From NCBI GenBank assembly GCA_015491815.1, contig WFVC01000161.1:1-55862 (forward strand): DNA of 55,862 nt, given 5' to 3'. The translations under genes and the position numbers were made by a program. Within the stretch, counting starts at the first letter, position 1; the number at the start of each line of letters is the position of its first letter. This document shows, in pieces, positions 3,528 to 55,862 of this stretch. This DNA comes from Gammaproteobacteria bacterium. Its GTDB lineage: Bacteria > Pseudomonadota > Gammaproteobacteria > UBA6429 > Thiohalophilaceae. Below the pieces are notes generated by a model that ran no database searches, was not told the origin of the DNA, and worked only from the letters and a program-made list of their open reading frames with translations.

Positions 3528-4931
3528 TTATTCCGGGCCAAAAAACATACTTTCGTATTTTGCTACTGCAGCTTTATCCGACATTTTTGCGGTAAAAATT
3601 ATCGGTATACGTGACTCTTTTAAGCTTTCTTTTGGAATCTTGATGTAAACAGTGTGTGGCGTCACTCCGCCCTTGTGTAAAATCAGAGGTTTATCTATCC
3701 CTTTCACTTGCATATCCTTCGGGCCCTGCACAGATAAACTAACTTCTGCGTCTCTATCCGTCTTGTTCAACAGCTTGAGAACATACTTGTTCTGAATGGT
3801 ATTATCACTTTGCAAAACAAACAAAGGCTGCCGTTCATGTAATACTTTGAGTTCCAGTGAACCAAGATGGGTCAGACCATAAAGTATGCCTGAAATTGCT
3901 ATCAACATGATAGCGAAATAAACCAGCACCCGGGGACGTTTATACAACGGAATTTCAGGCTTACCCAGCATATCATCCAGAGATGCATAGCGAATCAACC
4001 CACGCGGCTTGCCAATTTTATCCATCACCGTATCACAGGCATCCAGACAAAGACCACAGGTAATACATCCCTCCTGCTGGCCTTCACGAATATCCACTCC
4101 GGTCGGGCAAACTGCGACGCACTGATTGCACATGATGCAGTCGCCTTGATCATCCGGCACGCCGCCCTTTTTCAAACGACCGCGCGGTTCACCCCGTTTG
4201 AAATCATAGGTTGGTAAAATGGTTTCGCTGTCATACATGACGCCTTGAATACGCGCATAAGGACAAAGCCAGAAACACACTTGCTCGCGCATGAAACCGG
4301 CAAGAATAAAGGTGCCCGCTGTAAACAGAGCAATCGCCACCAGCTCAACAGTCGATATCTGCAGACTGAACAAATCCAGCCATAGTTGTCGGGCATCGGT
4401 AAACCAGGCGACAAAGCTGATGCCGGTAAACATTGAAATAAGCAACCAGAAAAACCATTTACTTAAGCGCAGACGTAATTTTTTCAGCGTCCAGGGCGCC
4501 TTATCCAGTTTGTGCCGCGCGGCAGGTTTGCCTTCCAGTTTTTCTTCAATCCAGGTAAACGCATCGGTCCAGATTGTCTGGAAACAGAAATAACCGCAGA
4601 ACGCGCGGCCAATCGTTGACGTTACCGCCGCCAGCAAAATTGCAAAAAACAGCAACACCAGAGATAGAATCCAGACATCCTGAGGTAAAATCGTAATATC
4701 AAAAAAGTGGAACTGGCGATGAGGGATATCAAACAAAATCGCCTGGCGATCGCCATAGCGTAAATAAGGGCCGAAAAAATAAACCAGCCAGACCAGTGAG
4801 GTGAAATATTTGAGGGTGCGAAAGCGCCCCGGCATACGCTTGGCGTGGATAGTCTCCTCGCCGGTATTAACATGCCATGCGCCAAGTTCTTCATAGATGG
4901 TGCTTTCTGCACCGCGCTCTTCTTTACTCAA
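3528..4931 (-). CDS. ccoG: cbb3 oxidase accessory protein CcoG (FixG-type polyferredoxin)
   Basis: Integral membrane iron-sulfur protein of 467 residues; CcoG homologues reduce copper for cbb3 assembly. Membrane helices near residues 40-55, 86-105, 158-175 and 195-215 flank cysteine pairs FCGYFC (112-116) and CFWLC (219-223). Two 4Fe-4S motifs follow: C265/C268/C271/C275 and C289/C292/C295/C299. Another helix near 335-355 and an IgG-like C-terminal domain complete the protein. The start codon is TTG at 4931, supported by the ribosome site AGGGGAG five bases upstream. First gene of ccoGHIS, separated from the structural genes by a terminator-like hairpin. Confidence 0.93.
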   Translation of the reverse strand: MSKEERGAESTIYEELGAWHVNTGEETIHAKRMPGRFRTLKYFTSLVWLVYFFGPYLRYGDRQAILFDIPHRQFHFFDITILPQDVWILSLVLLFFAILLAAVTSTIGRAFCGYFCFQTIWTDAFTWIEEKLEGKPAARHKLDKAPWTLKKLRLRLSKWFFWLLISMFTGISFVAWFTDARQLWLDLFSLQISTVELVAIALFTAGTFILAGFMREQVCFWLCPYARIQGVMYDSETILPTYDFKRGEPRGRLKKGGVPDDQGDCIMCNQCVAVCPTGVDIREGQQEGCITCGLCLDACDTVMDKIGKPRGLIRYASLDDMLGKPEIPLYKRPRVLVYFAIMLIAISGILYGLTHLGSLELKVLHERQPLFVLQSDNTIQNKYVLKLLNKTDRDAEVSLSVQGPKDMQVKGIDKPLILHKGGVTPHTVYIKIPKESLKESRIPIIFTAKMSDKAAVAKYESMFFGPE

Positions 4932-5088
4932 AATTGCTCCCCTACGCGCGCCAAATATGGCAAGCCAGAATCACGAAAAAAAACGGGTGAATTTTTCAAC
5001 CAGTCAAATGGCATTGCGCTGATGTTTCTGCAGGTGACGACCCCTGAATGAAGGGGTGTGCGAATATGGAGTTTACCACAGTCCGATT

Positions 5089-5117
5089 AAAAGGCAGAGA
5101 TGACGTTTCTGCCTTTT
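5089..5117 (-). terminator. Perfect hairpin between the CcoM-like gene and ccoG
   Basis: Perfect 10-bp stem AAAAGGCAGA / TCTGCCTTTT with a 9-base loop, 14 bases past the stop of the CcoM-like gene. Read on the minus strand it ends in TTTT, like an intrinsic terminator, though the stem is only moderately GC-rich. The symmetry allows action on either strand. It probably separates ccoNOQP-small gene from ccoGHIS. Confidence 0.6.
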
Positions 5118-5130
5118 ATTGCTCATACGC

Positions 5131-5244
5131 CTAATTTTCGGACTTGTCTGAATTAATCAACTTCAGAATGCGAATAGCTAAAAAAATGATAATAAGTACG
5201 GCGCCGCTAACCGCCAATATAGCGCCAATTGCAACTGCATCCAT
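5131..5244 (-). CDS. CcoM-like 37-residue single-helix membrane peptide
   Basis: Unannotated-size reading frame of 37 codons directly downstream of ccoP. It begins MDAVAIGAILAVSGAV, continues as one hydrophobic helix to about residue 24, then has a basic stretch RILK and a polar tail ending SDKSEN. A very strong ribosome site, GGAGGGT, lies 7 bases before the ATG. Length, single helix and position in a cbb3 operon resemble CcoM, the small helical subunit described for the Pseudomonas stutzeri cbb3 oxidase. That identity is inference; it could also be another stabilising peptide. A hairpin precedes it (5311-5338) and a terminator-like hairpin follows it. Confidence 0.7.
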   Translation of the reverse strand: MDAVAIGAILAVSGAVLIIIFLAIRILKLINSDKSEN

Positions 5245-5310
5245 TTTTATACCCTCCAAAAAATAAGACTATGGGTAATTAAGCCTGTTCACTCTAAAAG
5301 GGGATCAGAA

Positions 5311-5338
5311 GACCGCATGAACATTTGCCCATGCGGTC
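5311..5338 (-). other. Perfect stem-loop just downstream of ccoP
   Basis: Nine-bp perfect stem GACCGCATG / CATGCGGTC with a 10-base loop, 13 bases after the ccoP stop. No U-run follows on the minus strand, so it looks more like an mRNA-stabilising or processing hairpin than a full terminator. It would protect the ccoNOQP message and lower expression of the small gene downstream. Confidence 0.5.
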
Positions 5339-5351
5339 AACATGGCCTTAA

Positions 5352-6197
5352 TTATTGACCACCACCCAGCTTGTACACATAGACCGCCAGTTTCTTAATA
5401 TCAGTATCAGACAGTTTACCGCCACCAAACTTGGGCATCTCGGCATCACGGGTCTTTGGATCAGACGGATCGTTGACGCCGTGCTTGATGGTATAGGCCA
5501 CACTTTCCTTGCTGCCCGGCGCGAAACGCCAGATACCGTCCATCAGGTTGGCTGAACCCAGCGCCTGCATGCCGGTGCCGGTCGGGGTGTGACAACCCAC
5601 GCAACCCTTCTCCATGTACAGAGGCTCTTCAATAACCTTGCCGGCGACAATCGCACTGGCCAGCTTATCGATTTCCACATCAGTGAGCTGGGAGCCGCCC
5701 ATTTTCGGCATCATACCGCGGCGACCGTTGGTAATTGTTTGCTCGATAGTTTCGATACTGCCGCCATAAAGCCAGTCATCATCGGCCAGCACCGGAAAAC
5801 CCGGGTTGCCGGAACCACCGGCGCCATGACAGGCCGCACAGTTGTCACCGAACAGCACCTTGGCGGAACGCACTGCGTATTCACTCAGCTCGTCATCAGC
5901 CAGAATCGCGGCCACCGACATACCCGGCAGCTTGCTTTCATATTTGGCGCGCACGGATTCAATTTCCTTCATATCCTGTTTATATTCCTTAATTGCCGTC
6001 CAGCCGGTCAAACCTTTGAAATGGCTGTTAAGCAAAGGCCAGGATGGATAAATCAGGGTATAAACGACAACAAAGATCCAGCTTGCATGAAAGCCGATCC
6101 ACCACCATTTCGGTGGCTGGTTTAATAACTCACCCAGTGTCTCATCCCACACATGCCCAGTTGTCTGCACATCGTATGGATTATTCTTTTCACTCAT
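5352..6197 (-). CDS. ccoP: cbb3 oxidase diheme cytochrome c subunit CcoP
   Basis: Membrane-anchored diheme cytochrome c of 281 residues that feeds electrons into the CcoO/CcoN path. The N-terminal segment has GHVWDETLGELLNQPPKWW, characteristic of CcoP, then a membrane helix at about 33-52. Two heme motifs follow: CAACH at 120-124 and CVGCH at 199-203, with Met-containing segments downstream as distal ligands. The ATG at 6197 overlaps the ccoQ stop by 4 bases (ATGA) and has a near-perfect GGAGGT ribosome site inside ccoQ. Confidence 0.96.
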   Translation of the reverse strand: MSEKNNPYDVQTTGHVWDETLGELLNQPPKWWWIGFHASWIFVVVYTLIYPSWPLLNSHFKGLTGWTAIKEYKQDMKEIESVRAKYESKLPGMSVAAILADDELSEYAVRSAKVLFGDNCAACHGAGGSGNPGFPVLADDDWLYGGSIETIEQTITNGRRGMMPKMGGSQLTDVEIDKLASAIVAGKVIEEPLYMEKGCVGCHTPTGTGMQALGSANLMDGIWRFAPGSKESVAYTIKHGVNDPSDPKTRDAEMPKFGGGKLSDTDIKKLAVYVYKLGGGQ

Positions 6198-6400
6198 TTC
6201 TTTACCTCCGCATCAAAACGGTCATCATCATTGAGGATATGGCGTTGTGCTTCCAGCCGCTCCTTATTTTTAGGATGGAAAACCAGTACATAGGCGACAA
6301 GCATCAGCACAAATATACTCACCGTCATGATCATGCCGATCCAGTCGTGCAGGGTCATGGCCGCCCAGTCCGTACTAAAATATTCCTTCAGGCTATTCAC
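6194..6400 (-). CDS. ccoQ: cbb3 oxidase subunit CcoQ
   Basis: Small membrane subunit of 68 residues; the family stabilises the cbb3 complex. A helix spans about residues 23-42, then comes the typical [14 protein letters not shown] cytoplasmic segment. The start is not certain. GTG at 6400 gives the N-terminus [15 protein letters not shown] and overlaps the ccoO stop in GTGAATAG. TTG at 6421 and ATG at 6358 are alternatives; ATG 6358 would drop the EYFSTDW stretch, which looks family-like. No strong ribosome site marks any of them, so coupling to ccoO is probable. Confidence 0.85.
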
Positions 6401-7106
6401 GATAGTCAACGCTGTTATCAAAGCGAACCATGGTGCCCAATACCTGTAGATAGGCGACTACCGCTTCCATTTCGGTTTTGCCGTTGACGCTGGCGGCGGC
6501 GCTGGCAAAATCTTCATCGGTATAAGGCACACCCACCATCTTCATGGCTTTCATGGTGGCGACCGTTTCATCTGCATCAACCGTGTTTTTATCCAGCCAG
6601 GGATAGTTCGGCATAACCGACTCAGGCACGACTGAACGCGGTGCGCGCAGATGACGCACATGCCAGGCATCGGAGTATTTTCCGCCAACACGCGCCAGAT
6701 CCGGCCCGGTGCGTTTGGAACCCCACTGGAAGGGGTGATCATACATCGACTCAGAAGCCAATGAATAATGCCCATAACGTTCCTTCTCATCACGGAAAGG
6801 ACGAATCATCTGCGAGTGGCACAGATAACAGCCTTCACGAATGAAAACCATGCGCCCCATCAGCTCCAGTGGCTTGTAAGGACGCACGCCGTCACCGGCT
6901 TTCCAGTCATCCAGACTCTGACCCGCCTTGCGCTGCCAGAGAATTTCCGGGTGTTTGTTATGCTCCATCGTATCGTCAAGATAGAACAGGGGAACAATTT
7001 CCACCAGCCCACCCACAGACAACAGAACCATGAGCATGAGCAACATGACAATGCCGCTGCGCTCGACCTTGTCCTGCAGTTTTGTTGAATAAATTTTATC
7101 TGCCAT
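6393..7106 (-). CDS. ccoO: cbb3 oxidase monoheme cytochrome c subunit CcoO
   Basis: Membrane-anchored monoheme cytochrome c of 237 residues, electron relay between CcoP and CcoN. A helix lies at about 18-42; the heme motif CYLCH is at 93-97 inside the conserved [15 protein letters not shown] stretch. The segment [18 protein letters not shown] is typical of CcoO/FixO. ATG 7106 is preceded by AGGAG with a 9-base gap. It follows ccoN after 17 bases. Confidence 0.97.
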
Positions 7107-7123
7107 TGTTCTTGACTCCTTAA

Positions 7124-8551
7124 TCAGGCGTTAGCCGTTGCTGCAGTAACAGCGGGCCGTGAGCTTGCAGTGCGAATGGTCATGACTACGTTATAAAGCA
7201 TAACTGCGCCACCCGCCCAGTAGATCAATCCACCAATTGCACGCATCGCATAATAAGGATGCATAGCGGCAACCGATTCTGCGAAGGTGTAGGTCAGCGT
7301 GCCGAAGGCGTCATAGTCACGCCACATCAGACCCTGCATGATGCCGGATACCCACATGGCGGTGATGTAGATCACGGTGCCGATGGTCGCCATCCAGAAG
7401 TGCATATTTACCAGACTGGAAGAATACATGCGTGTATTCCACAGACGCTCGACCATATGATAGAGCCCGCCGGCGGCAACCATCGCCACCCAGCCCAATG
7501 CGCCGGAGTGCACATGCCCAATCGTCCAGTCGGTGTAATGAGACAGGGCATTCACGGTCTTCACTGACATGACCGGACCTTCAAATACAGACATGGCGTA
7601 GAAAGCCAGTGACATGATCAGGAAGCGTAAAATGTAATCGGTGCGCAACTTATCCCATGCGCCGGAGAGGGTCATCATACCGTTGACCGCGCCGCCCCAG
7701 GAAGGAATGATCATGGCCAGCGATACCGCCGCACCCAGTGAACCGGTCCAGTCCGGCAGTGCGGTGTATTGCAGATGGTGAGCGCCCAGCCAGACGTAAC
7801 CGAACATCAGCGCCCAGAAGTGGATCACCGACAGGCGGTAGGAGAACACCGGGCGGTTGGCCTGCTTGGGCACGAAGTAGTACATGATGCCGAGGAAGCC
7901 CGCCGTCAGGTAGAAGCCCACTGCATTATGTCCCCACCACCATTGAATCATGGCGTCCTGCACTCCGGAGAACACCGAGTAGGACTTGAACAGACCCACC
8001 GGAATCGCCAGACTGTTCACTACGTGCAGGTAGGTGATCATCACCATCATGCCGAGGAAGAACCAGTTGGACACATAGATATGGGAGGTCTTGCGCTTCA
8101 TCATGGTCATGAAGAAGTTAATTGAATAGGCCAACCAGACCACGGCAATGGCCAGATCGATAGGCCATTCCAGCTCGGCGTATTCCTTCCCCTGGGTAAT
8201 ACCCAGCGGCAGAGTAATCACCGCAGCCACAATGATCAGGTTCCAGCCCCAGAATGTAAACCAGGCCAGACCATTGCTCCACAGTGGCACACCGCAAGTG
8301 CGCTGCACTGAATAAAATGCCGTCGCCATGAGCGTACACCCGCCAAAAGCGAAAATAACGGCGTTGGTGTGCAGGGGACGAAGTCGACCAAAGGTGAGTT
8401 CGGCAATATCAAAGTTCAAAACCGGCCAGGCCAGTTCTGATGCGATATAAACCCCAACCAGGGTGCCGACCACCAGATAGATCACCGCAGCAACGGTAAA
8501 CCACCGAACGACCTCAAAATTATATTTCTCTTCTACTTGTGCTGTTGCCAC
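7124..8551 (-). CDS. ccoN: cbb3 oxidase catalytic subunit CcoN
   Basis: Heme-copper oxidase subunit I, C-type, 475 residues and about 12 membrane helices. It reduces oxygen to water and pumps protons at the inner membrane, usually under low oxygen. Visible marks are the low-spin heme region [13 protein letters not shown], the CuB-site histidines in [15 protein letters not shown] and GAHHLQYT, and [10 protein letters not shown] near residue 345. The start is GTG at 8551, supported by GAGGAG 7-8 bases upstream. First gene of ccoNOQP. I looked for an FNR/ANR box upstream and found none that fits. Confidence 0.97.
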
Positions 8552-8931
8552 GAGTAGTCTCCTCTATGTGTTGACAAAATTAATGTCGTTGCTAACGAAT
8601 AAATATGCTGGAATAAACCGCGTTGACTGTGTTAGCAATAATCCGGTGAAACACCAAGACATTGACATACTTGTTCAGCTATATGATTTACGGTTTATTA
8701 TTATTTGAAAAACAGATTTATTTGCAGCAACAGGCCACCCTCTGGCCTTTATGAATCCTCGACAAGGAATTCCTTTACAGTATACCCGAATTTTGGAGCC
8801 TGTCCAAAAAGTACAGATAAATAATGGAGGTAAATTATGTCTGGTCTAGTTCCAGAACTGCAGACTGACACCACATAAATACCAGAGCATCTGTATCAGT
8901 CATTAATGCGCAAATACCCTACTATACTAGT
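8552..8931. other. Intergenic region upstream of ccoN
   Basis: 380 bases between bioD and ccoN. It should hold the ccoN promoter on the minus strand, but no clear -35/-10 or TTGAT-N4-ATCAA box could be assigned. It contains a small hairpin (AGGCCA/TGGCCT, 8732-8748) and a 13-codon plus-strand frame with a strong ribosome site, listed separately. Otherwise AT-rich with no gene. Confidence 0.6.
8837..8878 (+). other. 13-codon frame with strong ribosome site
   Basis: ATG at 8837 follows GGAGG with a 6-base gap, but the frame (MSGLVPELQTDTT) stops after 13 codons. It could be a leader peptide, the stump of a lost gene, or chance. No hairpin or downstream plus-strand gene supports an attenuator. 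Function unknown. Confidence 0.3.
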
Positions 8932-43351: not shown

Positions 43352-44260
43352 ATGCGCATCGGTATTGATCTGGGCGGCACAAAAATAGAAGGCATCGCAC
43401 TCGATAATGCCGGCGGGGAATTATTTCGCCAACGCATTCCCACGCCGCAACATGATTATGCCGCAACCCTTCAGGCGATAAGCAGGCTTGTTCAGCAGAT
43501 TGAAAAACAATGCCGACAAACCGGCAGCGTTGGTATTGGCATTCCCGGCGCGGTGTCACCGGCAAGCGGCAATATCAAAAACGCCAATTCCACCTGGCTG
43601 ATTGGCCGGCCCATGCAACAGGATCTGGAAACACAGTTGGCGCGCCCGGTGCGCATCGCCAACGATGCCAACTGCTTTGCCGTTTCGGAAGCCTCCGATG
43701 GTGCGGGAGCGGATGCGCGCATCGTCTTTGGCGTGATTATCGGCACCGGCGCCGGTGCGGGGATCTGCATTGATAGGAAGCCACTGACAGGCTGCAATGC
43801 AATCAGCGGCGAATGGGGACACAACCCCCTGCCCTGGCCAGCGACAGCAGAATTACCCGGCCGGCCATGTTACTGCGGCAAACAGGGCTGCATCGAAACC
43901 TGGCTCTCCGGCCCCGGTTTTACCCGCGCATATCAGGAAGCGGGCGGAGAGGCGCAAAATCCACAGGTGATTCTTAAACAAGCGGAACAGGGAAATGAGC
44001 GGGCGGAAAAAGCTTTGCAGGATTATGAAGACCGGCTCGCGCGTTCACTGGCAAGCGTGATTAATATTCTTGATCCCGAGGTTATTATCCTCGGTGGCGG
44101 CATGAGCAACATCCAGCGCCTGTATGAAAATGTTCCCCGTCAATGGGCGCAATACGTTTTTTCTGATCGGGTCGATACCCGGCTATTGCCGCCGATACAC
44201 GGAGATTCCAGCGGCGTACGCGGCGCCGCCTGGCTGTGGCCGAAGAAGGGTTCATCATGA
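43352..44260 (+). CDS. ROK-family sugar kinase (fructokinase-like)
   Basis: 302 residues. ATP site GIDLGGTKIEG (4-14), GIPGAVSPASG, catalytic region NDANCFAVSEA, and the zinc motif CYCGKQGC, all as in ROK kinases. GEWGHNPLPW resembles fructokinase Mak. Fructose or N-acetylglucosamine are both plausible substrates; the exact one is not set by sequence here. Confidence 0.85.
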   Translation: MRIGIDLGGTKIEGIALDNAGGELFRQRIPTPQHDYAATLQAISRLVQQIEKQCRQTGSVGIGIPGAVSPASGNIKNANSTWLIGRPMQQDLETQLARPVRIANDANCFAVSEASDGAGADARIVFGVIIGTGAGAGICIDRKPLTGCNAISGEWGHNPLPWPATAELPGRPCYCGKQGCIETWLSGPGFTRAYQEAGGEAQNPQVILKQAEQGNERAEKALQDYEDRLARSLASVINILDPEVIILGGGMSNIQRLYENVPRQWAQYVFSDRVDTRLLPPIHGDSSGVRGAAWLWPKKGSS

Positions 44261-44299
44261 ACCCTAAATACAACGACCGATGCACCATTTAAGTCAACT

Positions 44300-44491
44300 T
44301 TAGTCCTTACATTTTTTACAAGTATTTAATCCGATAAGAGGATACAGGGGACAAAAATTAAAGAGTCCTGTTAATAAGGGCACCAAACCAACCCAGCCCC
44401 ATGCCGTCTTTGGCCCGACAAAAACCAGACTAATCAGCACCAGCCCAACGATGATCCTTAAAACTTTGTCTATTCCACCTACGTTTTTCAT
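44300..44491 (-). CDS. DUF2892 membrane protein (YgaP-like)
   Basis: 63 residues with two hydrophobic helices (about 10-25 and 29-50) and the motif CPLYPLIGLNTC near the end, typical of the DUF2892 domain that is also fused to rhodanese in YgaP. ATG 44491 has AAGGTGG; GTG 44500 is in frame. Function unknown. Confidence 0.8.
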   Translation of the reverse strand: MKNVGGIDKVLRIIVGLVLISLVFVGPKTAWGWVGLVPLLTGLFNFCPLYPLIGLNTCKKCKD

Positions 44492-44648
44492 CTGCTCCAC
44501 CTTAAATTCAATTAATAATTGCTAATAACAATATCCCGTTTGGCTCACATCTTCAGTGACAAAGTCACATTCAAAACCTGTAAAATAATAGTAGCAAAGG
44601 TTCCTATTGTCCTTATCTGCGCATTAATGCTATCGCATTAAATCAATG

Positions 44649-45683
44649 TCAGCCTGTTTCACGCTCCTCTTTCGCAATCATCCTCCTGTAAAACATACTT
44701 TGTTTCCACGCCCCTCGTATAAATATAAGACCGGGTCTTTCCACGGTTTTATACATTACAGTTGCGATAAACATTGATACCAAAACAGGCGTCAATATTA
44801 TCACCGACGGCATACTGATATTTGCTTCGTACAAGCCCCTAATTATCACATACCCAATATTTTGGTGAATAAGATACAAACTGTATGAAATAGATCCCAG
44901 AAAAATTAATGGGCGCTTTGCAATAAAACCAAGCTTGCCTTTAACAAACAACATAAATACTAGAAAATAAACGCTCACAAGAAATGCAAGCTGTCCATGC
45001 CACAAATATTCTAAAAACAATGCATAAAAAATTATCAGATAATGATAAATTTTTTCATTTTTTGTTATTTTGTAAAAAATAATACCTGCTATAAATAAAT
45101 TCCCATACTCAAGCAATAATGTCATTTTCACAAGATTTGGAATATGAATGCCAAATATATTTTCAACACTCCATGCGGCCGTCATCAATCCAAGCCAAAC
45201 CACACAAACCAGCTCGATTCGCTTTATTATTCCTGTAGCAAAAAGAACAACCATTATCGAATAAAATGATAATTCATATGCCAGTGTCCAATATACACCA
45301 TCAACATTTTTCACATAAAACCATTTTTGCAACATAGTTAAATTAAGCAGCATTTCACTTGCTTCTGTTTCTCTTCCCGGCAAACTAAAAATACTAACTA
45401 TTGTAAACGTAAGTAATATTGCAACCCAATAAGCAGGGAACAACCGGGAGAACCTTGATGCTATAAAGTCTTGCGTGTATTTTGTTTTATTCAGCGTTAA
45501 GAAAATAACAAACCCGCTAATCATAAAAAACAACTGCACCCCGTATTTCCCAATATCGAATGTAAATGGTAATTCCACCTGATGTGTATATAACTCATTA
45601 TACCTTGTTGTATAGTGGTAAAGTACGACCATCATTGCCGCTATTCCTCGCAACGCGTCTAATTCAAACAGTCTGCTCTTCAT
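44649..45683 (-). CDS. Acyltransferase-3 family membrane protein (OafA/NodX-like)
   Basis: 344 residues with about ten membrane helices. LDALRGIAAMMVVLYHYTTR at the start holds the conserved R/H pair; FFMISGFVIFL, RFSRLFPAYW and SISYSLYLIHQNIG are the other family blocks. Such proteins add acetyl or other acyl groups to surface polysaccharides. AT-rich compared with genes before 44300. Likely the start of the polysaccharide island. Confidence 0.88.
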   Translation of the reverse strand: MKSRLFELDALRGIAAMMVVLYHYTTRYNELYTHQVELPFTFDIGKYGVQLFFMISGFVIFLTLNKTKYTQDFIASRFSRLFPAYWVAILLTFTIVSIFSLPGRETEASEMLLNLTMLQKWFYVKNVDGVYWTLAYELSFYSIMVVLFATGIIKRIELVCVVWLGLMTAAWSVENIFGIHIPNLVKMTLLLEYGNLFIAGIIFYKITKNEKIYHYLIIFYALFLEYLWHGQLAFLVSVYFLVFMLFVKGKLGFIAKRPLIFLGSISYSLYLIHQNIGYVIIRGLYEANISMPSVIILTPVLVSMFIATVMYKTVERPGLIFIRGAWKQSMFYRRMIAKEERETG

Positions 45684-46326
45684 CGCTTATAACTCTTTCA
45701 GTCTTTATACTTGAAATTCAGCATTGCACAGTTATCCCGGCACATCCATAACAAACAATTTGCACTTTTCTGGCCGAACTTATTCAATTTATCAGAATTC
45801 TAAATATTTTATATCTGGGGTTCTAACTTATTTTTATATTTCAGACAATGACTCTGAAACTTTTATCTATCTTTCATCTCAAAGAACAACCACTTAAATC
45901 TGCCTGCAAGGCCCTACAACCTTACTCCATCATTTATATTGTTCTTTCCCAAAAAATGAACACATTCCAATTTTGCATAAACACACAGGAAATCATGGCA
46001 TTACGGAAACTTTATCAGGCACGATATCCTATTAAAGGTTAAACAATATCATATTTAACATATGATCAGCTTCCAGATAAACATTCCTGAAATTCAGTTA
46101 ATTTTCGGAATAATTATTAACCAGTATAATCGGAAACTGTTATGTAGATGAAGATTTCAAGTAACAATTACAACTGTGAGAAATCGTTTTTGAAGGTGCG
46201 ATTGGTACTAAGAAATTTATAATTTATACGATTTCACACTTATTAGTTCTGGTGGGATATGAAGCCAAGTGTTTTTTAGGAGGGGCTAACTCTCCTCGGA
46301 TATTACCCGAGGAGAGTCACGGCTAA
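45684..46326. other. AT-rich gap downstream of the PKD lipoprotein
   Basis: 643 bases between the acyltransferase start and the stop of the PKD lipoprotein. It holds the acyltransferase promoter region and one strong hairpin (46289-46317). The longest plus-strand frame (45848-46042) has no ribosome site and looks random. Nothing else recognised. Confidence 0.6.
46289..46317 (-). terminator. Hairpin downstream of the PKD lipoprotein
   Basis: Perfect 11-bp stem ACTCTCCTCGG / CCGAGGAGAGT with a 7-base loop, ten bases past the stop codon. Strong GC stem, but no U-run follows on the minus strand. Confidence 0.55.
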
Positions 46327-47748
46327 TTAATAGGGATATTGCGGTAAGGTATCTTCTGAATTTGAGATTGCAAAATCATCCATATAAATCCAGAAGTCAC
46401 ATGACAGACTTCGATCACGGCATGGATTGATTGTTGTTGGCATACGAATCATCTTGTGGCCACCAACTTCGTTAGCTGGAATCTGCCAGCTTAGATTAGG
46501 CGTGACACCATTAATCCATTCTGCTGTTTTTGTCCACTGTCCGCCCATAGGCTTTATCCACTGCTCATATGAAGGACTAACTGTTGAAGTATCAATATGT
46601 AATTTTACCAGCAACCAACGATTCGGCGTCATTTTTTCAGCAAGGCTGGTCTGACCTAATTTCCAGGTAGAATCGTCCGTTGGCCCAGTGTATCGCAGGT
46701 ATTCATAATCCGCCAAATGCATATACATCCCACTTGCTGCATCGCCTAACTCCTGCGAAAAGGGTTGATAACTGGCGGTACAACAGCCAAACAACCATAA
46801 CCCATCATGGCTTGGGTATGCGGATTTAGTCGGGTAAATAAATTTACCAGTGCGTCCAAACCCACTAATTTGGTCATTAATGTCATTGGGATCATCATAG
46901 TTGTTAATGTACATCCAGAACTGGAACCATACATTTCCCGGGATCTGACCAACACTACCACTTTCATCACCATACTGAAGATAAAAATCAGTCTGGGTAT
47001 CAAATGTCGAAGGCCGTCCTTCTATTGCTAACACATAGTCTGAGTTTCGTCCGGGGAAGGGACCAGAGTATCCTGGTATTTGATTCACAGTGTACATGTA
47101 ACCCGCATAGCTGCCGGTCAAATTAATTGCTTTCGCATTCGACCAACCATTAGCAAGAAATTTCTCACGTTCACCTAATCCATCATTTGAATCCCGCCGA
47201 ACTGAGTAGTTAAAATCATCGTAAAACAGGACACCATTGGGAACAATTACCTGACTATTATCCACTGACGAGCCAAATACATATATAGACCGGGTTGCTG
47301 TTTTAACTTCTCCATCACTACCCGTTGAAGTTAGCGTCACCGTAAATGTTCCAGCCTGACTATAGACATGTGACACGCTCTGGCCTGAAGCTGTTGCACC
47401 ATCGCCAAAATTCCATTGGTACCCATTATTGCCGCCACTGGCGCTTAGGCTTACTGTTAGTGAGGCCGGCCCACTGGTAGGATCTGCTGAAATAGAAATA
47501 GTGGTATTTGAAGGCGCAGGCACCGGCTCAGGTTCGGTATTCGCATCATCTGTGCTCGCTGCCGCCGCAGCGGGAACATTTTGACTATCTTCTGTATTGG
47601 TTTCTGCGCTGGTGGTGGTTAAAGAGGCAAACTGAGCATTTGCGCCAGTATCTGCTGATTCACCTCCACCGCAACCGGTTACCAGTACAGCAAATATCAC
47701 ACTCAAGCTTAATACTTTAGTATCTCTAATATATTGAAAATATTTCAT
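46327..47748 (-). CDS. Secreted PKD lipoprotein with unknown C-terminal domain
   Basis: 473 residues. Signal peptide with lipobox LVTGC (C26), an alanine/proline/threonine linker to about 80, a PKD domain at about 83-158 (YQWNFGDGATASG), then a C-terminal domain from about 172 to the end. The latter is shared almost completely with the protein at 48452, by eye about two thirds identical, including DFYLQYGD, GNVWFQFW, GCCTASYQP, LADYEY and LSCDFW. The fold could be a concanavalin-like carbohydrate-active one, but that is inference. ATG 47748. Divergent from its paralogue across a 703-base gap. Confidence 0.8.
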   Translation of the reverse strand: MKYFQYIRDTKVLSLSVIFAVLVTGCGGGESADTGANAQFASLTTTSAETNTEDSQNVPAAAAASTDDANTEPEPVPAPSNTTISISADPTSGPASLTVSLSASGGNNGYQWNFGDGATASGQSVSHVYSQAGTFTVTLTSTGSDGEVKTATRSIYVFGSSVDNSQVIVPNGVLFYDDFNYSVRRDSNDGLGEREKFLANGWSNAKAINLTGSYAGYMYTVNQIPGYSGPFPGRNSDYVLAIEGRPSTFDTQTDFYLQYGDESGSVGQIPGNVWFQFWMYINNYDDPNDINDQISGFGRTGKFIYPTKSAYPSHDGLWLFGCCTASYQPFSQELGDAASGMYMHLADYEYLRYTGPTDDSTWKLGQTSLAEKMTPNRWLLVKLHIDTSTVSPSYEQWIKPMGGQWTKTAEWINGVTPNLSWQIPANEVGGHKMIRMPTTINPCRDRSLSCDFWIYMDDFAISNSEDTLPQYPY

Positions 47749-48451
47749 TGTTTGTCTCTGCCTCAAAATGCTTGATTCGTGCGATTATTGTCGTATATTT
47801 GCGCCCACTTGATTAGCAGCGCTTAACCGAAACGTGATCCAGTTCCCACCCCACCAGAAATAGTGTGACGATATTGACAATGAACGGGAAAACACCGGTA
47901 TTAAACGGCTATAAAATAAGAATATACTTATATAGGATTTACTTATTATTCAGACTTATTAGTTTTCGCCTCAAATCCTCTTTCATTCGCTAATTGAGCC
48001 ATAAACACGCGACCTCAGAATCAACTTTTTATACGTTGGTATCCATATTATGAGCAGTAGTCCATCGATATATCGTATAACCGCCACTATTATATCCAAC
48101 CATTGAATCTCTTGCACCTCATCCAGACAATACAAAGAGACACAGATTCAATCTCTCGTTACCCCCCCCACCTAAACTATATGCTGAATCAGGCTCGGTG
48201 GATAAACAGGATCATAACATCAGGCGCCCTGCGCCTATGTATAATTTCTGGAACATACCTAAGCAGTAATATCCAAACAAATTTACACAATACAGTGTTA
48301 TTTCTGCTGGAGTTTAAGATTTGCTACTTCACAGGCTTTGAGTCGTTTCTATCACCTGCGATGGAATATGATAAAATGTAATACTGAAATACACAGACAT
48401 CTACACATACGATAATAATTGTTACCATGTGTCTCTGGTGAGGAGAAACAA
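47749..48451. other. Gap between the divergent paralogues
   Basis: 703 bases, AT-rich. It must contain divergent promoters for both secreted paralogues, but no convincing -35/-10 pair or sigma-54 element could be assigned. A short poly-C stretch lies near 48168. No gene recognised; the 48103 frame lacks a ribosome site. Confidence 0.55.
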
Positions 48452-49456
48452 ATGCAATTCAAAATTATTAAACCATTATTGAGCATAATATTATACTGCG
48501 GCATTCTAACCACAGAAGCATCAGAAACGATGTATAAACAGGGGTTCAAAAAGAAGCCAATTTTTTTTGATGACTTTGAATATATTGTTACTCGAGATGG
48601 AACAAAAGGTAAACATAATTTTATTGACAAGGGCGGCTGGTCTAAAGTTAAGGCAATAAATATAATGGGCCGACATGCCGGTTATTTATATACAACAACA
48701 AAAATACCTGGATATACCGGGAACTTCCCGGGGAAACACTCCAAACATGTATTGGCTATCGAAAGCAAATCGTCTTCCTTAAATACACAAACCGATTTTT
48801 ATTTACAATACGGCGATAGTCATTCAAATACCGAACAGGTTCCTGGTAATGTATGGTTCCAATTCTGGCTCTATATTAACAATTATAATGATCCCAAAAA
48901 TCTAAATTCACAAATAAGTCATTTTCCAAGAAAAGGGAAATTTATATATCCATCAAAAAGTAAGTATCCCAGTCATGATTCATTATGGTTATTAGGTTGT
49001 TGCACCGCCAGCTACCAACCCTATTCAGATGAACTTGGTGATGCCGCTTCCAGGATATACTTTCATCTTGCGGATTACGAATATATAAAATACACCGGTA
49101 AAACCAGAGACACGATATGGAAGCTAGGTCAAACAAATTTGAATGAATACTTAAAACCAAATGAATGGACGCTGGTAAAAATACACATCGACACCTCAAC
49201 TGAGTCAGGTAAATTTGAGCAATGGTTAAAACCCGAAGGTAAAAAATGGACAAAAGTTGCAGAATGGATAGATGGAAAAACACCTAATTTCAAGTGGAGA
49301 ATTCCACCGTCTGAAGTTGGCGGACATAAAATGTTTCGTATGCCAACTACACTAAATCCTTGCATGGATCGTAGTTTAAGTTGTGATTTCTGGTTGTACA
49401 TGGATGACTTCGTTATGGCGGATTCAGAAGAGGCACTACCCGATTATCCCCAATAG
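48452..49456 (+). CDS. Secreted paralogue of the PKD lipoprotein C-terminal domain
   Basis: 334 residues: signal peptide (about 1-23), short linker, then only the domain shared with 46327-47748. Conserved cysteines sit in GCCTASYQP and NPCMDRSLSCDFW. No PKD domain and no lipobox, so likely soluble and secreted. Strong GAGGAG precedes the ATG. The coding sequence is more AT-rich than the lipoprotein gene. I do not recognise the domain; a polysaccharide-binding or -cleaving role is inferred only from neighbours. Confidence 0.8.
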   Translation: MQFKIIKPLLSIILYCGILTTEASETMYKQGFKKKPIFFDDFEYIVTRDGTKGKHNFIDKGGWSKVKAINIMGRHAGYLYTTTKIPGYTGNFPGKHSKHVLAIESKSSSLNTQTDFYLQYGDSHSNTEQVPGNVWFQFWLYINNYNDPKNLNSQISHFPRKGKFIYPSKSKYPSHDSLWLLGCCTASYQPYSDELGDAASRIYFHLADYEYIKYTGKTRDTIWKLGQTNLNEYLKPNEWTLVKIHIDTSTESGKFEQWLKPEGKKWTKVAEWIDGKTPNFKWRIPPSEVGGHKMFRMPTTLNPCMDRSLSCDFWLYMDDFVMADSEEALPDYPQ

Positions 49457-49620
49457 ATTGCCTTAATTAAAAATCTCCAATGGCATAACCATGATGATGT
49501 CTTTTTTGCTACGAAGCTCAAGATGATAGCAACTATGACTAGTGTCAGATATTACCCAAGCTCCATTTCAACTATAATGATAGTGATAAAACTGTATTTT
49601 AAGCCTGAGGAAATGGATAA

Positions 49621-50859
49621 ATGAATATCCTGTGGATTTCACATAATGTCCCATACCCGCCAAAAACGGGTGTATTACAACGTAACTATAATCTTTTGCG
49701 CGAAGCTTCTAAAGCTGGAAATATATATTTGCTAGCAATCCTTCAGGAAGGAATTTTACCCGTTGACTATGATTTAGATGAGGCGAGAAATGAGCTTGGT
49801 AAATTATGCAAACATATTGATGTCATAACATTAACTTCAGAAACATCACGACTCGCACTATATTTTCTGGCGCTGAAAAGCCTTTTTACTCAGGATCCTT
49901 TAAGTGTCAACTGTGTAAAATCATCACAGTTAAGAAGTAAATTAAGGGAGATTTCCTCTGAGGTGAATTTTGATATTGCTCACTTTGATACAATTGGACT
50001 TGCAACCTATTTTAACGATGTCAATTCTACTTTTAAAATACTTAATCACCATAATATTGAATCACATTTACTTCAAAGAAGAACAGACATTGAAACCAAT
50101 ATAATAAAAAGATTTTATTATGGACAGGAAGCAAGCAAATTAAAAAAATATGAAACAAATATCGCCTCTAAATTTGACATTAATTTTACAGTTTCTGACA
50201 TTGACAAAGACAGGCTTCTTGATATAGCGCCTGATTCTAGAGTTGAGATAATTGCCAATGGCGTGGATATAAACTATTTCACCCCTGATACGTCTGATAT
50301 TGTTCAAGGAAGCCTAATAATGGTTAGTGGAATGAACTGGTATCCAAACAGGGATGCAGTAATTTATATGCAGGAAAAAATCTGGCCCTTATTGATAAAA
50401 AGACACCCCGATGTTTCCTGGGTGGTAGTTGGCGCATCGCCACCACAGCAGCTACTGGATCTTGCAAATGAAGATAAACGCATAACCGTTACCGGGTTCG
50501 TTGATGATGTGCGCCCATATCTTAAAAAAGCGCACATTTATCTTTGTCCTATGCGAGATGGAGGGGGAACTCGCCTTAAAATTTTAGATGCATTATCTAT
50601 GGCAAAGCCAATTGTATCAACAACGATCGGATATGAAGGTATTGATGTGACTGCAGAGGAAAATGCACTATTTGCAAATACCCCTGAAGAATTTGTAAAT
50701 CAAATTGGCAGACTTTTAGAAGATAGAAATTTGTGCGCTCAAATTGGCAATAATGGACGAAAATTCGTAATTGAAAAATTCTCCTGGGATGTAATTGGAA
50801 AAAAACTTTCCCATATATATAACAATTTATTAGATAAATCTGGAAAAAATGATGAGTAG
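49621..50859 (+). CDS. GT4-type glycosyltransferase
   Basis: 412 residues, GT-B fold. N-terminal MNILWISHNVPYPPKTGVLQ, then ANGVDINYF in the hinge and the donor-site block RDGGGTRLKILDALSMAKPI with EGIDV downstream. It transfers a nucleotide-activated sugar during surface polysaccharide assembly. GAGGAAA upstream; overlaps the CapA-like gene by 11 bases. Sugar specificity unknown. Confidence 0.88.
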   Translation: MNILWISHNVPYPPKTGVLQRNYNLLREASKAGNIYLLAILQEGILPVDYDLDEARNELGKLCKHIDVITLTSETSRLALYFLALKSLFTQDPLSVNCVKSSQLRSKLREISSEVNFDIAHFDTIGLATYFNDVNSTFKILNHHNIESHLLQRRTDIETNIIKRFYYGQEASKLKKYETNIASKFDINFTVSDIDKDRLLDIAPDSRVEIIANGVDINYFTPDTSDIVQGSLIMVSGMNWYPNRDAVIYMQEKIWPLLIKRHPDVSWVVVGASPPQQLLDLANEDKRITVTGFVDDVRPYLKKAHIYLCPMRDGGGTRLKILDALSMAKPIVSTTIGYEGIDVTAEENALFANTPEEFVNQIGRLLEDRNLCAQIGNNGRKFVIEKFSWDVIGKKLSHIYNNLLDKSGKNDE

Positions 50860-51973
50860 TCCCAGCATCCAATTTTCTGCCGTAGGTGATATATCATTAG
50901 GTGACCATCCTTTATGTGCTGGGATTGGTACGCAAAGCAAAATAAACAATAAAACACCCGATTATCCGTTTAATAAAATACGAAACGAACTTCACAAAGC
51001 GGAAATTCTTTTTGGGAATTTAGAATGCACATTAAGTGAAGCTGGAAAAAATCCCCTTGATTACCATTCCGTACAAATGCGGGGATCACCATCCAATTTA
51101 TCAGGCCTGATTAACGCAGGCTTTAATATTATGAACATGGCTAACAACCATTCAATGCAACATGGGGAAACTCCGTTCATTGAAACCGTCAAAATGCTGG
51201 AAAAAAATAATATAAAACCATGTGGAGTAAATTTTAAAAATTTTAGAAAAGGGATCCCTGTAACTCTAACTGTTAATGAAATTACGGTTTCATTTATCGG
51301 TTATTCACTACGACCTCGCCAATATTTCGAATCACATCCTCTGTATTCCGAAGGATATATTGACGAGATCACAAAAGATATCCAAAACATACGTGATAAA
51401 ACTGATGTTTTGATTATTTCACTTCATTGGGGCGATGAATTTATTGAACGCCCTTCTCCAGAAGAAATAATGCTCGCAAGAAACATAATTGATGCAGGCG
51501 CAGATTTAATTCTTGGCCATCATCCACATGTTGTGAGAGGCATCGAAAAATATAATAATGGTTATATTGTTTACAGCCTTGGTAATTTTGTATGTGACAT
51601 GCTCTGGGATGATTCCCTTAGGGAAAGTTTTATTTTCTCTTGCTCTCTATCAAAGGATGGCATTAAGAATATCCAAATAACACCTGTTTTTATTAATAAA
51701 AACTTCCAGCCAGAGGTGCTTACAGGGAAAGCAGCAGATCTGCTGATTAAAAAAATCAACAAGCTTTCACACGAGTTGCAAAATAATGAATTAAAGGATT
51801 TCGACATCCAATCTAAAATATATAAACAAGATGCTGATAGTGTTTTAAAATTGATAAGAAGAAAATCTCAATTATTCTTTCTTAGTCGAATATGGAGCTA
51901 TCCTAAATTTATTCTTTTCCAACAAATAAAAAATTACCTACGAAACAGATTGATGGAAATTCAGGAAAAATAG
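50849..51973 (+). CDS. CapA-family (PGA_cap) metallophosphatase-like protein
   Basis: 374 residues. Metallophosphatase-type motifs: SAVGDISLGDH, FGNLECTL, NMANNHSMQHG, SLHWGDEF, GHHPHVVRG and YSLGNFVCD. CapA was first known in poly-gamma-glutamate capsule synthesis, but family members accompany many polysaccharide clusters. The C-terminal 80 residues are basic and helical. No signal peptide seen, so probably inner-face or unanchored. Confidence 0.85.
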   Translation: MMSSPSIQFSAVGDISLGDHPLCAGIGTQSKINNKTPDYPFNKIRNELHKAEILFGNLECTLSEAGKNPLDYHSVQMRGSPSNLSGLINAGFNIMNMANNHSMQHGETPFIETVKMLEKNNIKPCGVNFKNFRKGIPVTLTVNEITVSFIGYSLRPRQYFESHPLYSEGYIDEITKDIQNIRDKTDVLIISLHWGDEFIERPSPEEIMLARNIIDAGADLILGHHPHVVRGIEKYNNGYIVYSLGNFVCDMLWDDSLRESFIFSCSLSKDGIKNIQITPVFINKNFQPEVLTGKAADLLIKKINKLSHELQNNELKDFDIQSKIYKQDADSVLKLIRRKSQLFFLSRIWSYPKFILFQQIKNYLRNRLMEIQEK

Positions 51974-52023
51974 GGATTCCATATTTAATCACCTTAAACT
52001 CACCAACATATACAGATTGAAAA

Positions 52024-52722
52024 ATGACAACCATTAAATTTTTTATAACATTAATAACAATGATTACTGTTTTTATATCTAATTGCTATGCAAGCAATGA
52101 AAATATTCATCAAAATAAAAATGATAGCATTATTATAGTTGGCGCATCATATGCGCACGGATGGAAGATAAAAAGCATCGCTGGTTTAAAAGTTATTAAC
52201 GTAAGCATAGGTGGTGCAGAGACAAATGAGATGCTATCACGTTTCAATAAAGATGTGATTGAACGAAAACCGAAAGCTGTAATTATATGGGGGTTTATTA
52301 ATGACATATTTCGATCAAAGCCTGATCAGGTTCAGTCAAAACTTACAACTACCAAAAATAATATACTAATGATGATTGATCGCGCTCAAAACGCCGGAAT
52401 TATTCCAATACTGGCAACGGAACTTACAATTACATCAAGAGATTCATTTACCGAATATATTGCAGGTTTTCTAGGAAAAATACTGGGGAAAAAAAGCTAC
52501 CAGAATTATGTAAATAATTTGGTTATGGAAACTGATAACTGGTTGGAAAATATCGCCCGAAAACGAGGCCTTCTTCTCCTCGACTTTCAAGCTGAACTCT
52601 CTGATGACAATGGTATACGTTTGCGCAAGTATGCAACAAGTGATGGTAGCCATGTTTCACAAGAAGCATATCAAGTGTTATCAGATTATGTCGCTAACCT
52701 TAAGTTATCACGGACAAAATAA
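52024..52722 (+). CDS. Secreted SGNH/GDSL-family hydrolase
   Basis: 232 residues with a signal peptide (VFISNCYAS near 17-24). Block I is GAS (S42 nucleophile), block II glycine in SIGGAE, block III asparagine in GFIND (N93), and block V DGSH with D207 and H210. All catalytic positions are kept. Such enzymes often remove or add acetyl groups on exported polysaccharide. Between CapA-like and pectate-lyase-like genes. Confidence 0.85.
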   Translation: MTTIKFFITLITMITVFISNCYASNENIHQNKNDSIIIVGASYAHGWKIKSIAGLKVINVSIGGAETNEMLSRFNKDVIERKPKAVIIWGFINDIFRSKPDQVQSKLTTTKNNILMMIDRAQNAGIIPILATELTITSRDSFTEYIAGFLGKILGKKSYQNYVNNLVMETDNWLENIARKRGLLLLDFQAELSDDNGIRLRKYATSDGSHVSQEAYQVLSDYVANLKLSRTK

Positions 52723-52733
52723 TAATACTGTTA

Positions 52734-54086
52734 ATGTTTATAATATCTTCTATTAGATTTTTACTGCTAATTACTCTGATTATTTTATGTAATCCTGCGG
52801 CTAATGCTTCACTTATTTCTTTTCCTGGAGCCGAAGGTTTCGGTGCAATTTCAATTGGTGGGCGTGGTGGTCGCATTATCAGGGTATCTAACCTCAATCC
52901 GGATGGTCCGGGAAGTTTTCAGGCCGCCTGCGAAGCCTCTGGCCCACGGATAGTCATATTTGAAGTATCGGGAGTAATTAGGGGAAATATTTCTATTAGA
53001 GATTCGAATATAACGATTGCCGGCCAGACTGCACCGTCACCGGGGATCACACTGGAAGGTCGTCTTTTTTCATGGCCCAAAAACGATGTTGATCGCCTTC
53101 ATGATATAATAATTCGTTTTTTAAGAATACGACCAGCGCCTAGCACTGGGCACAATGGTGATGCGCTGCAATTACCGAATACAGAACGGGTCATGCTCGA
53201 TCACCTCTCATTGTCCTGGGCTAATGATGAGGTCATTGATATTATTTACTCATCCGAGGTCACCTTGCAGTGGTCTACAATTGAGGAATCAGATCCGAGA
53301 GGACATGGAAAAGGCGTTCCTCATAATTACGCAGTTTTAAGCGCATATCCAGGTAGTGGTAATATTACCTTCCATCACAATTTATTTGCCAATCATTCAA
53401 GGCGGATACCTTCATTGACACCAGAAACACCAGGTAAATATGACGATTTTCGTAATAATCTAATTTACAATTTTCGAGAAGGACTGGGACATGATGGACA
53501 CAAACCTGTCGCCGGAATTAATCTAATTGGTAATTATTATAAACGTGGTTCGGAATCCTGGACAGTGACGCCTTTTAGTTTTTCAGAGGATGGACATTAT
53601 TATCTGCATGATAACTACCTTGAGGGTTATGGATCTCTTGGACAGCCTGAGCATAAATATAAAATTTGGCCTCTTTGGTTAAAGTTTCGACGAAATGGCG
53701 CGTTTCATAACAAGCCATTTCCTGTCGCAAAAGTTAATACAGAAACTGCAAAAAATTCATACCATAGTATATTAAAACTTGCAGGTGTATTCCCTCGAGA
53801 CCGTGTAACCAAAAGGACTATTAATGAAATAGAAACTGGAAAAGGAAGCTGGAGACGCAACGCACCAGATAATCCAGATGATGCCTGGTATCTAAAAGGT
53901 CTACCTGTAGAAAAATTAGCAATTGATAGTGACAAAGATGGTATTCCCGATGTATGGGAAACAAGCAACCATCTGGACAAGAATGATCCTAACGATTATG
54001 GAAGAATTATGAAATCAGGGTATACTGCTATTGAAGAATATATCAATGATCGTGCACTTGAGTTAATAAACAGATATAGTAATTAA
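52734..54086 (+). CDS. Pectate-lyase-like secreted beta-helix protein
   Basis: 450 residues. Signal peptide ends PAANA (about 25). FPGAEGFGAISIGGRGG and GSFQAACEASGPRIVIFEVS are typical of bacterial pectate-lyase-like right-handed helices, followed by NITIAGQTAPSPGITLEG and several beta-helix coils. Near residues 400-425 is a calcium-binding TSP3-like stretch (DSDKDGIPDVWE). Likely a lyase acting on an acidic polysaccharide outside the cell; whether on the own product or a foreign one is unknown. Its stop overlaps that of the convergent sulfotransferase in a shared TTAA. Confidence 0.85.
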   Translation: MFIISSIRFLLLITLIILCNPAANASLISFPGAEGFGAISIGGRGGRIIRVSNLNPDGPGSFQAACEASGPRIVIFEVSGVIRGNISIRDSNITIAGQTAPSPGITLEGRLFSWPKNDVDRLHDIIIRFLRIRPAPSTGHNGDALQLPNTERVMLDHLSLSWANDEVIDIIYSSEVTLQWSTIEESDPRGHGKGVPHNYAVLSAYPGSGNITFHHNLFANHSRRIPSLTPETPGKYDDFRNNLIYNFREGLGHDGHKPVAGINLIGNYYKRGSESWTVTPFSFSEDGHYYLHDNYLEGYGSLGQPEHKYKIWPLWLKFRRNGAFHNKPFPVAKVNTETAKNSYHSILKLAGVFPRDRVTKRTINEIETGKGSWRRNAPDNPDDAWYLKGLPVEKLAIDSDKDGIPDVWETSNHLDKNDPNDYGRIMKSGYTAIEEYINDRALELINRYSN

Positions 54087-55084
54087 TAATTTTGATCCCA
54101 TTTTAGGGTTGTATCGTCATGAAGATAACGGGCATTTGCAAAATAATTATTATATGTGTATGCATCAATCTTAAATAAATCCATTATCTCAAAACACCGC
54201 TCTTCTTCTCCATCGTTTATTGTATTTTTCCATTTTGTAAACATCTTTATTCTACGTCTTTCTGTGTCCCTGTCCTGAAGGATTTTTTTAGTATGAGTTC
54301 CTGACATATCTATATTTACAGATGGAACGTCAACTGCTTTTAACATTAAATCTTCGCGTTCAAGCTCAAGTTTATCAGCCATAACATGGCAAACAGTATA
54401 AGGTTTTAACAACAGCTCTTCATATGTTACAAACAACCAATCGGTTGTATCCGAATACTTTAGTGGAAGTATATTTTCCAAACACCACGCAATTACCCCT
54501 TGCTCTAATTTGCTACCGGTCTCACATATATTTTTAATTTTAATAATTTTCTCCGGCGTTAGATATTTTTTAGTATAAAAATCAGAATTCAAATACAGAT
54601 CAAGACGTGGTAGAACATTCCGAGACAAAGAAGTAGGTATTGGGTGCCTTAATAAGTACAATATCTGACCATTACATTTCTCTTTTATCGGATTAATTAA
54701 GTGTTCCAACTCATGTATTTTAAATACAATACGTTTAGTGTAAAAATTCCAATATTTTCTAAAAGGTGTTGGATTCATCACTCCTATTTTATTATTTGAA
54801 AGTTCTCGCAAATACTGGATTATATCTTCTTCACGTTCAGCCTCTGGCATCAAGTCTTCCCATTTTTTAAACCTTGAAACCTTTTGCACATTAGGTCGCC
54901 TGACACTGAATGGTTCATCATAGTATTTCATGCCAGGTTGTGAAGATAATATTTCCATGACCCATGTAGATCCCCCTCGCGGTGTTGCGAACAAAAATAT
55001 ATTTTTTTTATCACCTTGATGATGAATGTTTGAAAAAGCTCTTATTAAGCCTTTGAAACTTTCACCAAAATTTGACGTCGACAT
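54083..55084 (-). CDS. Sulfotransferase family protein
   Basis: 333 residues from ATG 55084 (GGAAGG upstream); ATG 55111 overlapping the flippase stop (ATGACTAA) is an alternative. The PAPS 5'-phosphosulfate loop TPRGGSTW (34-41) and the 3'-phosphate motif YLLRHPIPTSLSR are present. It would transfer sulfate from PAPS to a sugar, probably of the exported polysaccharide. AT-rich. Downstream of the flippase. Confidence 0.85.
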   Translation of the reverse strand: MSTSNFGESFKGLIRAFSNIHHQGDKKNIFLFATPRGGSTWVMEILSSQPGMKYYDEPFSVRRPNVQKVSRFKKWEDLMPEAEREEDIIQYLRELSNNKIGVMNPTPFRKYWNFYTKRIVFKIHELEHLINPIKEKCNGQILYLLRHPIPTSLSRNVLPRLDLYLNSDFYTKKYLTPEKIIKIKNICETGSKLEQGVIAWCLENILPLKYSDTTDWLFVTYEELLLKPYTVCHVMADKLELEREDLMLKAVDVPSVNIDMSGTHTKKILQDRDTERRRIKMFTKWKNTINDGEEERCFEIMDLFKIDAYTYNNYFANARYLHDDTTLKWDQNY

Positions 55085-55103
55085 AAATCCTTCCAGATAA
55101 TTA

Positions 55104-55862
55104 TTAGTCATTTGCATGTAACAACCGAATAACAACACTATAATTTAATACTGCATAAACTATCATCGCTAATAAAATAGTTGCCGATAAAATAAGGGGA
55201 TTAGTTAAATCAAAATAATATTTTCCAACTATAACAACCGCAGCCATTAAACCCGTCTTTGCAACAATCTGTATCAATACCAATGCGAATTTTCGTAATT
55301 CTAATGAAATAAACTTTCGCAAAACTAAAAAACCAATTATACACTGAAGCGTCATTGGTATGGTAATCGACCACGCAGCCCCATCAAGACCATACTCGAC
55401 CGTCATAGGATATATTAAAATCAAAATTAGGATTGTTCGGCCAATGGCAAGATAAAAATCGTATTGTGGCTTTCCTAATCCATTCATCAAATATCCAATC
55501 AAAGAAACTACAGATCTGGCCACGCCAAATATACATAATATTTTTAGCGGTTCAGCAGATGGCAACCATTTTTCACCATAGACTAACGGCATAACTTCAA
55601 CTGCAAGTAAAGCTAGCCCTGTCGCCATTGGCAATACTATCAAAATAATTAATTCAAATATTTGGAGAAATATATTACGTACTTTTTCTACATCGTCTTG
55701 AATTTTGCTATATACGGGAAAAAGTATGCGAGAGGATAATTTTGAAATATATGTCGTTGCATAATTTGCAGTTGTAAATGCAAGCACATAATAACCAAGC
55801 TGCTCTACTCCAAGGATTTTACCAATAAAAGCATTATCGAGTTGTGAAGAAAAATATAATAC
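55104..55862 (-). CDS. Polysaccharide flippase (Wzx/MOP type), partial
   Basis: The frame is open to the window edge, so the N-terminus is missing; 252 residues are visible. Helices, KILGVEQLGYY, MPLVYGEKWLPSAEPLKIL and GLGKPQYD are characteristic of MOP-superfamily lipopolysaccharide/O-antigen flippases. It moves lipid-linked sugar units across the inner membrane. Coupled to the sulfotransferase. Confidence 0.85.
   Translation of the reverse strand, partial: VLYFSSQLDNAFIGKILGVEQLGYYVLAFTTANYATTYISKLSSRILFPVYSKIQDDVEKVRNIFLQIFELIILIVLPMATGLALLAVEVMPLVYGEKWLPSAEPLKILCIFGVARSVVSLIGYLMNGLGKPQYDFYLAIGRTILILILIYPMTVEYGLDGAAWSITIPMTLQCIIGFLVLRKFISLELRKFALVLIQIVAKTGLMAAVVIVGKYYFDLTNPLILSATILLAMIVYAVLNYSVVIRLLHAND

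Follow-up and report, generated by a model that had tools for sequence, protein, structure and literature searches.

Exported paralogues of a gammaproteobacterium share a rare domain with a predicted concanavalin A-like fold

Two divergent genes of a gammaproteobacterial genome encode exported paralogues, here called proteins A and B, with a common domain that structural models place confidently in the concanavalin A-like (ConA-like) lectin/glucanase superfamily. Judged by its sequence, the family appears undescribed in the libraries that we searched (Pfam, NCBIfam and PDB sequences), and the predicted fold is an ordinary one. On the strength of that fold, the pair probably grips or cuts polysaccharide at the cell surface.

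The gene pair and its surroundings

We analyzed a stretch of 55,862 nucleotides, referred to as the window, and its features are listed in Table 1. The initial annotation had described two exported, divergent paralogues with a common domain of about 300 residues. Both reading frames proved real, and the shared domains are 65% identical across 300 residues (E 2e-157), well past anything that chance would give. The genes point outward from a shared gap, in which promoter-like matches were no commoner than chance. Given the GGAG ahead of it, the ATG is probably the best start of protein B, and the listed TTG at 48419 is probably wrong. The difference in architecture between the two copies was also borne out. 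Protein A carries a lipobox, as read from the sequence, together with a PKD domain (Pfam E 1.5e-14), and is the only one of the two with both marks of a PKD-bearing surface lipoprotein, whereas the N-terminus of protein B reads as an ordinary signal peptide.

To the right of ~44 kb, the GC content of the window drops from 52–58% to 35–42%, and positions 44000–55862 are probably an acquired surface-glycan island that reaches the contig edge. The sulfotransferase, glycosyltransferase and lyase-like neighbours named in the initial annotation are real, with the sulfotransferase-like and pectate-lyase-like genes only just over their Pfam cut-offs. The stp1-like GT4 glycosyltransferase raised the XrtA/PEP-CTERM system as a candidate, which we rejected since exosortase A was not found in this genome.

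Table 1. Coordinates of the gene pair and of its neighbours in the window
Feature	Coordinates	Strand	Details
Membrane acyltransferase (Acyl_transf_3)	44649..45683	-	E 1.1e-26; inside the low-GC island
Protein A	46327..47748	-	ATG 47748 to 46327; 473 aa; predicted lipoprotein
Layout of protein A			Lipobox LVTGC, Ser/Thr/Ala-rich linker, PKD domain, predicted ConA-like domain
Shared domain of protein A (predicted ConA-like)	46330..47235	-	Residues 172-473
Divergent intergenic region	47749..48451	.	~700 bp
Protein B	48452..49456	+	ATG 48452 behind GGAG; 334 aa; signal peptide and bare predicted ConA-like domain
Shared domain of protein B (predicted ConA-like)	48557..49453	+	
GT4 glycosyltransferase	49621..50859	+	Nearest TIGR03087 (XrtA-associated stp1), 242.8 bits, below cut-off 316.65
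PGA_cap (CapA-like) protein	50849..51973	+	E 7.5e-60
SGNH/GDSL esterase, exported	52024..52722	+	E 5.9e-13
Pectate-lyase-superfamily secreted protein	52734..54086	+	PF00544, 24.5 bits vs cut-off 24; PelZ model, N-terminal part
Sulfotransferase-like protein	54083..55138	-	PF00685, 23.3 bits vs cut-off 22
Polysaccharide flippase (Wzx-like)	55104..55862	-	PF13440, E 1.5e-25; cut by contig end

A rare and patchy family

Members of the family occur in gammaproteobacteria, a planctomycete, myxobacteria, one further bacterium and one tailed phage. Four copies, including proteins A and B, are found in this 2.6 Mb genome. Others lie in two further genomes of the genus, in one of the taxonomic family (the same contig as L010, labelled Ectothiorhodospiraceae) and in other gammaproteobacteria. 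The more distant members come from a Pirellulaceae planctomycete, two myxobacterial MAGs and one viral contig. The family is rare and patchy: we detected the domain in 4 out of 40 genomes of the taxonomic family and 2 out of 369 of the class (present genome counted), and in single genomes, each already known to us, of the myxobacterial (1 out of 284) and planctomycete (1 out of 392) phyla. Searches of plasmid and phage record collections gave no match to the domain.

Proteins A and B are mutual nearest relatives in the tree (support 92/94, just under the strict level of the tool), which is consistent with local duplication. The two remaining copies of the genome cluster with the genus copies near adk. 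These two, L026 (G000:C150) and L027 (G000:C125), are 97% identical over 738 bp, each is broken by a contig end, and they may have arisen by recent duplication or represent strain variants within the assembly. An N-terminus with a PKD domain and a lipobox-like motif was also read in the sequences of L004, L005, L007, the first L009 copy and L024, and a domain search confirmed the PKD domain of L024. Because PKD-bearing copies recur, both architectures are a habit of the family.

The surroundings of the homologues favour a role on the cell's own glycan for some copies only. The L009 copies lie among GT2, GtrA, methyltransferase and asparagine synthase genes and the L010 copy among methyltransferase, carbamoyltransferase and SxtJ genes, settings similar in kind to the island of the window. 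L009 also has an acyltransferase beside its two copies. We rejected conserved synteny with the window, as the acyltransferases do not align and the arrangement may be a coincidence. In L011 the homologue adjoins a GH43/GH32-like beta-propeller (5636-7828), and in L012 it adjoins a homologue of that propeller (4879-6207, E 1e-5). The genus copy adjoins adk (adenylate kinase), MOSC and DUF3581 genes, and glycan-assembly genes are absent nearby. The C150 copy is next to pirin and GST-like genes, and the L024 copy is next to asparaginase, nucleotidyltransferase, fumarase and dehydrogenase genes.

The viral member, L015 (IMGVR_UViG_3300003312_000008), is encoded at 7749-8876 of a tailed-phage contig, downstream of the head genes; the contig encodes a portal, a head morphogenesis protein and a head maturation protease. 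The homologue has 375 aa and starts with a short N-terminal part, followed by a proline-rich linker and then the domain. It had no PHROG match, and a second viral scan seeded with this copy returned only the L015 contig. From its position, we infer that it is a virion protein, which possibly binds or cuts a host glycan.

Predicted fold, profile comparisons and conserved residues

AlphaFold2 models of the domain are nearly all-beta for both proteins (A, 15 alignment rows, pLDDT 90.9, pTM 0.90; B, 13 rows, pLDDT 87.2, pTM 0.90). Foldseek searches against the PDB placed the PL36 alginate lyase Aly36B, GH131 beta-glucanases and legume lectins on top, and the matches shown were mainly ConA-like (E 1e-6 to 1e-4), with a small number of other beta folds. 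Among many unnamed phage proteins, the viral library also returned alginate lyases and ConA-like lectin/glucanase proteins. The initial annotation would have taken a new fold or a carbohydrate-active match for residues 172-473 as support; the ConA-like matches rule out the former and supply the latter. TM-scores of ~0.5 or lower fix the superfamily of the modelled domain, not its family.

The best enzyme match in both searches was the beta-jelly roll of Aly36B (PDB 6kcw, 6kzk; E about 1e-5, TM up to 0.55), for which one comparison gave E 6.3e-6 and the wild-type entry 6kcw gave TM 0.46/0.55. The structural alignment nevertheless has only 11-12% identity and an rmsd of 6.7 or more, and Aly36B was not listed, even at E 10, when PDB sequences were searched with phmmer or with a profile. 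GH131 beta-glucanases share the ConA-like fold (TM up to 0.53) and resemble the domain by fold alone, with no match to a GH131 or GH16 profile in Pfam. Legume lectins and laminin-G belong to the same fold superfamily but reach TM-scores of only about 0.25-0.45.

The initial annotation had recognized no family for the domain, and our searches of Pfam, NCBIfam and PDB sequences, the last including a profile search, likewise returned none. Matches to PF25706 and phrog_35456 (E about 0.3-0.5) and to the PDB sequences of PqsC and CFAM166B (E above 0.4) were discarded as noise. One profile link points weakly to the jelly-roll lyases of PF14099 (Polysacc_lyase). For that family only L012 was listed, with 17.2 bits against a gathering cut-off of 29.9. 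Profile-profile comparison (hhalign) of the domain family with ten gammaproteobacterial PF14099 proteins gave a score of 36.2 and a probability of 36% over the C-terminal 78 columns only, where a W..V..H.D.S..G..E.W hairpin and a final Y.DDF strand are alike. None of 40 column shuffles exceeded 16.7, and the reversed control scored 21.6; laminin-G, at 19.1 with the same query, did no better than the latter. Without L012, the PF14099 link drops to a probability of 19% (score 32.7). The catalytic His/Tyr motifs of the jelly-roll lyases are not recognizable: with the register set by eye, the Q.H position seems to be KFIYP and the K.GIY position RMPTT. We take this local link as a hint and not as membership. 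A PL7 profile yardstick was sought, but no PL7 was found in 143 genomes.

Residue conservation was assessed in an alignment of proteins A and B with 13 further members, and residues are numbered within the domain of protein A (full-length numbers are higher by 171). Four motifs had been proposed as kept. DFYLQYGD stands as a family signature in the form QTDFYLQ, with DFYLQ at 87–100% per position, whereas the other three are mostly specific to A and B. Outside the pair, GCCTASYQP keeps only the closing P and a half-conserved S, and LADYEY and LSCDFW retain chiefly their D and D.W, respectively. The strict positions fall in QTDFYLQ, VWFQFW, KFIYP, N.W..V..H.D and W.Y.DDF. Invariant across three phyla and the phage are Q81, W103, Q105, W107, K131, Y134, W207, H213 and D215, and 14 out of 15 members keep E72 and E224, both of which are Gln in L014. 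Strand alternation (101-110, 207-215, 222-229) sets W103/Q105/W107, H213/D215 and E224/W226 opposite hydrophobic residues. From this pattern, we infer that E72, Y85, Q87, W103, Q105, W107, Y109, H213, D215, E224 and W226 face away from the hydrophobic core, and K131 probably does likewise. The strictly kept Q105, K131, Y134, H213 and D215 suggest a working cleft. Such invariant Lys, His, Tyr, Gln and Asp residues among tryptophans would resemble a polysaccharide cleft; a lectin would look much alike at this resolution.

Binding or cleavage of polysaccharide

Our leading reading, held tentatively, is that the domain binds a polysaccharide, most likely cleaves it as a lyase-type depolymerase, and acts on the cell's own glycan. 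The polysaccharide would be held in the cleft of the concave sheet of the beta-sandwich and cleaved by beta-elimination. Protein A would be lipid-anchored at the outer membrane and spaced from it by the PKD domain, and protein B would be released from the cell. Together they would trim, free or remodel an acidic exopolysaccharide of the cell, assembled by the products of neighbouring genes. The parts of this reading differ in strength. Ligand binding is strongly indicated, and catalysis is moderately so. Lyase rather than hydrolase chemistry is weakly suggested by the invariant acid/base candidates K131, H213, Y134 and D215. An own-glycan substrate is likewise weakly suggested, by location only. 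Because there is no family match, catalytic residues were not assigned by homology. Catalysis in jelly-roll alginate lyases takes place in a concave cleft, where most families use Tyr or His as acid and base and Aly36B has a Lys instead of Tyr (PMC8618178); the invariant K131 of the present family is a putative counterpart. The proposed role is analogous, with no homology claimed, to those of the glycanases ExoK and ExsH, which cleave succinoglycan made by the same cell (PMC4916376), and of AlgL, a degrading enzyme encoded within the alginate biosynthesis cluster (PMC5099689).

A close rival to the lyase-like depolymerase, and a quite plausible one, is a non-catalytic lectin that binds the cell's own exopolysaccharide, with protein A tethering it to the outer membrane and protein B cross-linking the matrix as a matrix adhesin. 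Legume lectins rank among the best Foldseek matches at E-values similar to those of the enzymes, a lipid anchor with a PKD spacer is apt for tethering, host recognition would be a fitting role for the phage homologue, and the lyase motif is unrecognizable. However, the legume-lectin TM-scores are below those of the enzymes, the weak profile link is clearly stronger for lyases than for laminin-G, and K131, H213 and D215 (E72 and E224 nearly) are strictly kept across phyla. Most lectins keep fewer charged residues across phyla than this family does. An endo-glycosidase of the GH16/GH131 type, which would cut a neutral glucan or similar via two carboxylates, is improbable. GH131 catalytic domains do stand beside PL36 among the enzyme matches, and only one member lacks the candidate carboxylates E72 and E224. 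It is their replacement in L014, where K131 and H213 remain, that slightly favours lyase chemistry, and Pfam searches gave no sequence signature of either glycosidase family.

The substrate, rather than the chemistry, is at issue in a further alternative that we consider rather unlikely, in which a secreted enzyme or binder scavenges foreign (algal or detrital) polysaccharide. The propellers beside L011 and L012 and the genus copy outside glycan-assembly loci are in its favour, whereas glycan-assembly genes surround the copies in the window, L009 and L010, and no uptake system was seen beside those copies. Those three settings, the propellers and the phage copy all count for the leading reading; the modest TM-scores (about 0.5), the lectin matches and the genus copy by adk count against it. 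The interpretation in the initial annotation gained partial support. Its suggestion that the domain may bind or cut an acidic polysaccharide is backed by the fold and by the weak PF14099 link. A specific link to a sulfated substrate gained no support, as the sulfotransferase is linked by proximity only and the genus copy beside adenylate kinase has no glycan-assembly genes around it. A bolder proposal, which we regard as unlikely, is that the domain represents a new family of ConA-like polysaccharide lyases whose chemistry is of an unusual Lys/His type, common to glycan-producing bacteria and to a phage that turns it on the surface polysaccharide of a host.

The family appears new in the libraries searched, and the kind of protein, a member of a carbohydrate-active superfamily, is already known. 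If the domain is only a lectin, it would be one more ConA-like family without a database profile, useful for annotation. As an enzyme, it would be the first of a new carbohydrate-active family and provide a tool for an uncharacterized bacterial polysaccharide, and the phage copy would then point to a fold that bacteria and a phage both apply to such glycans.
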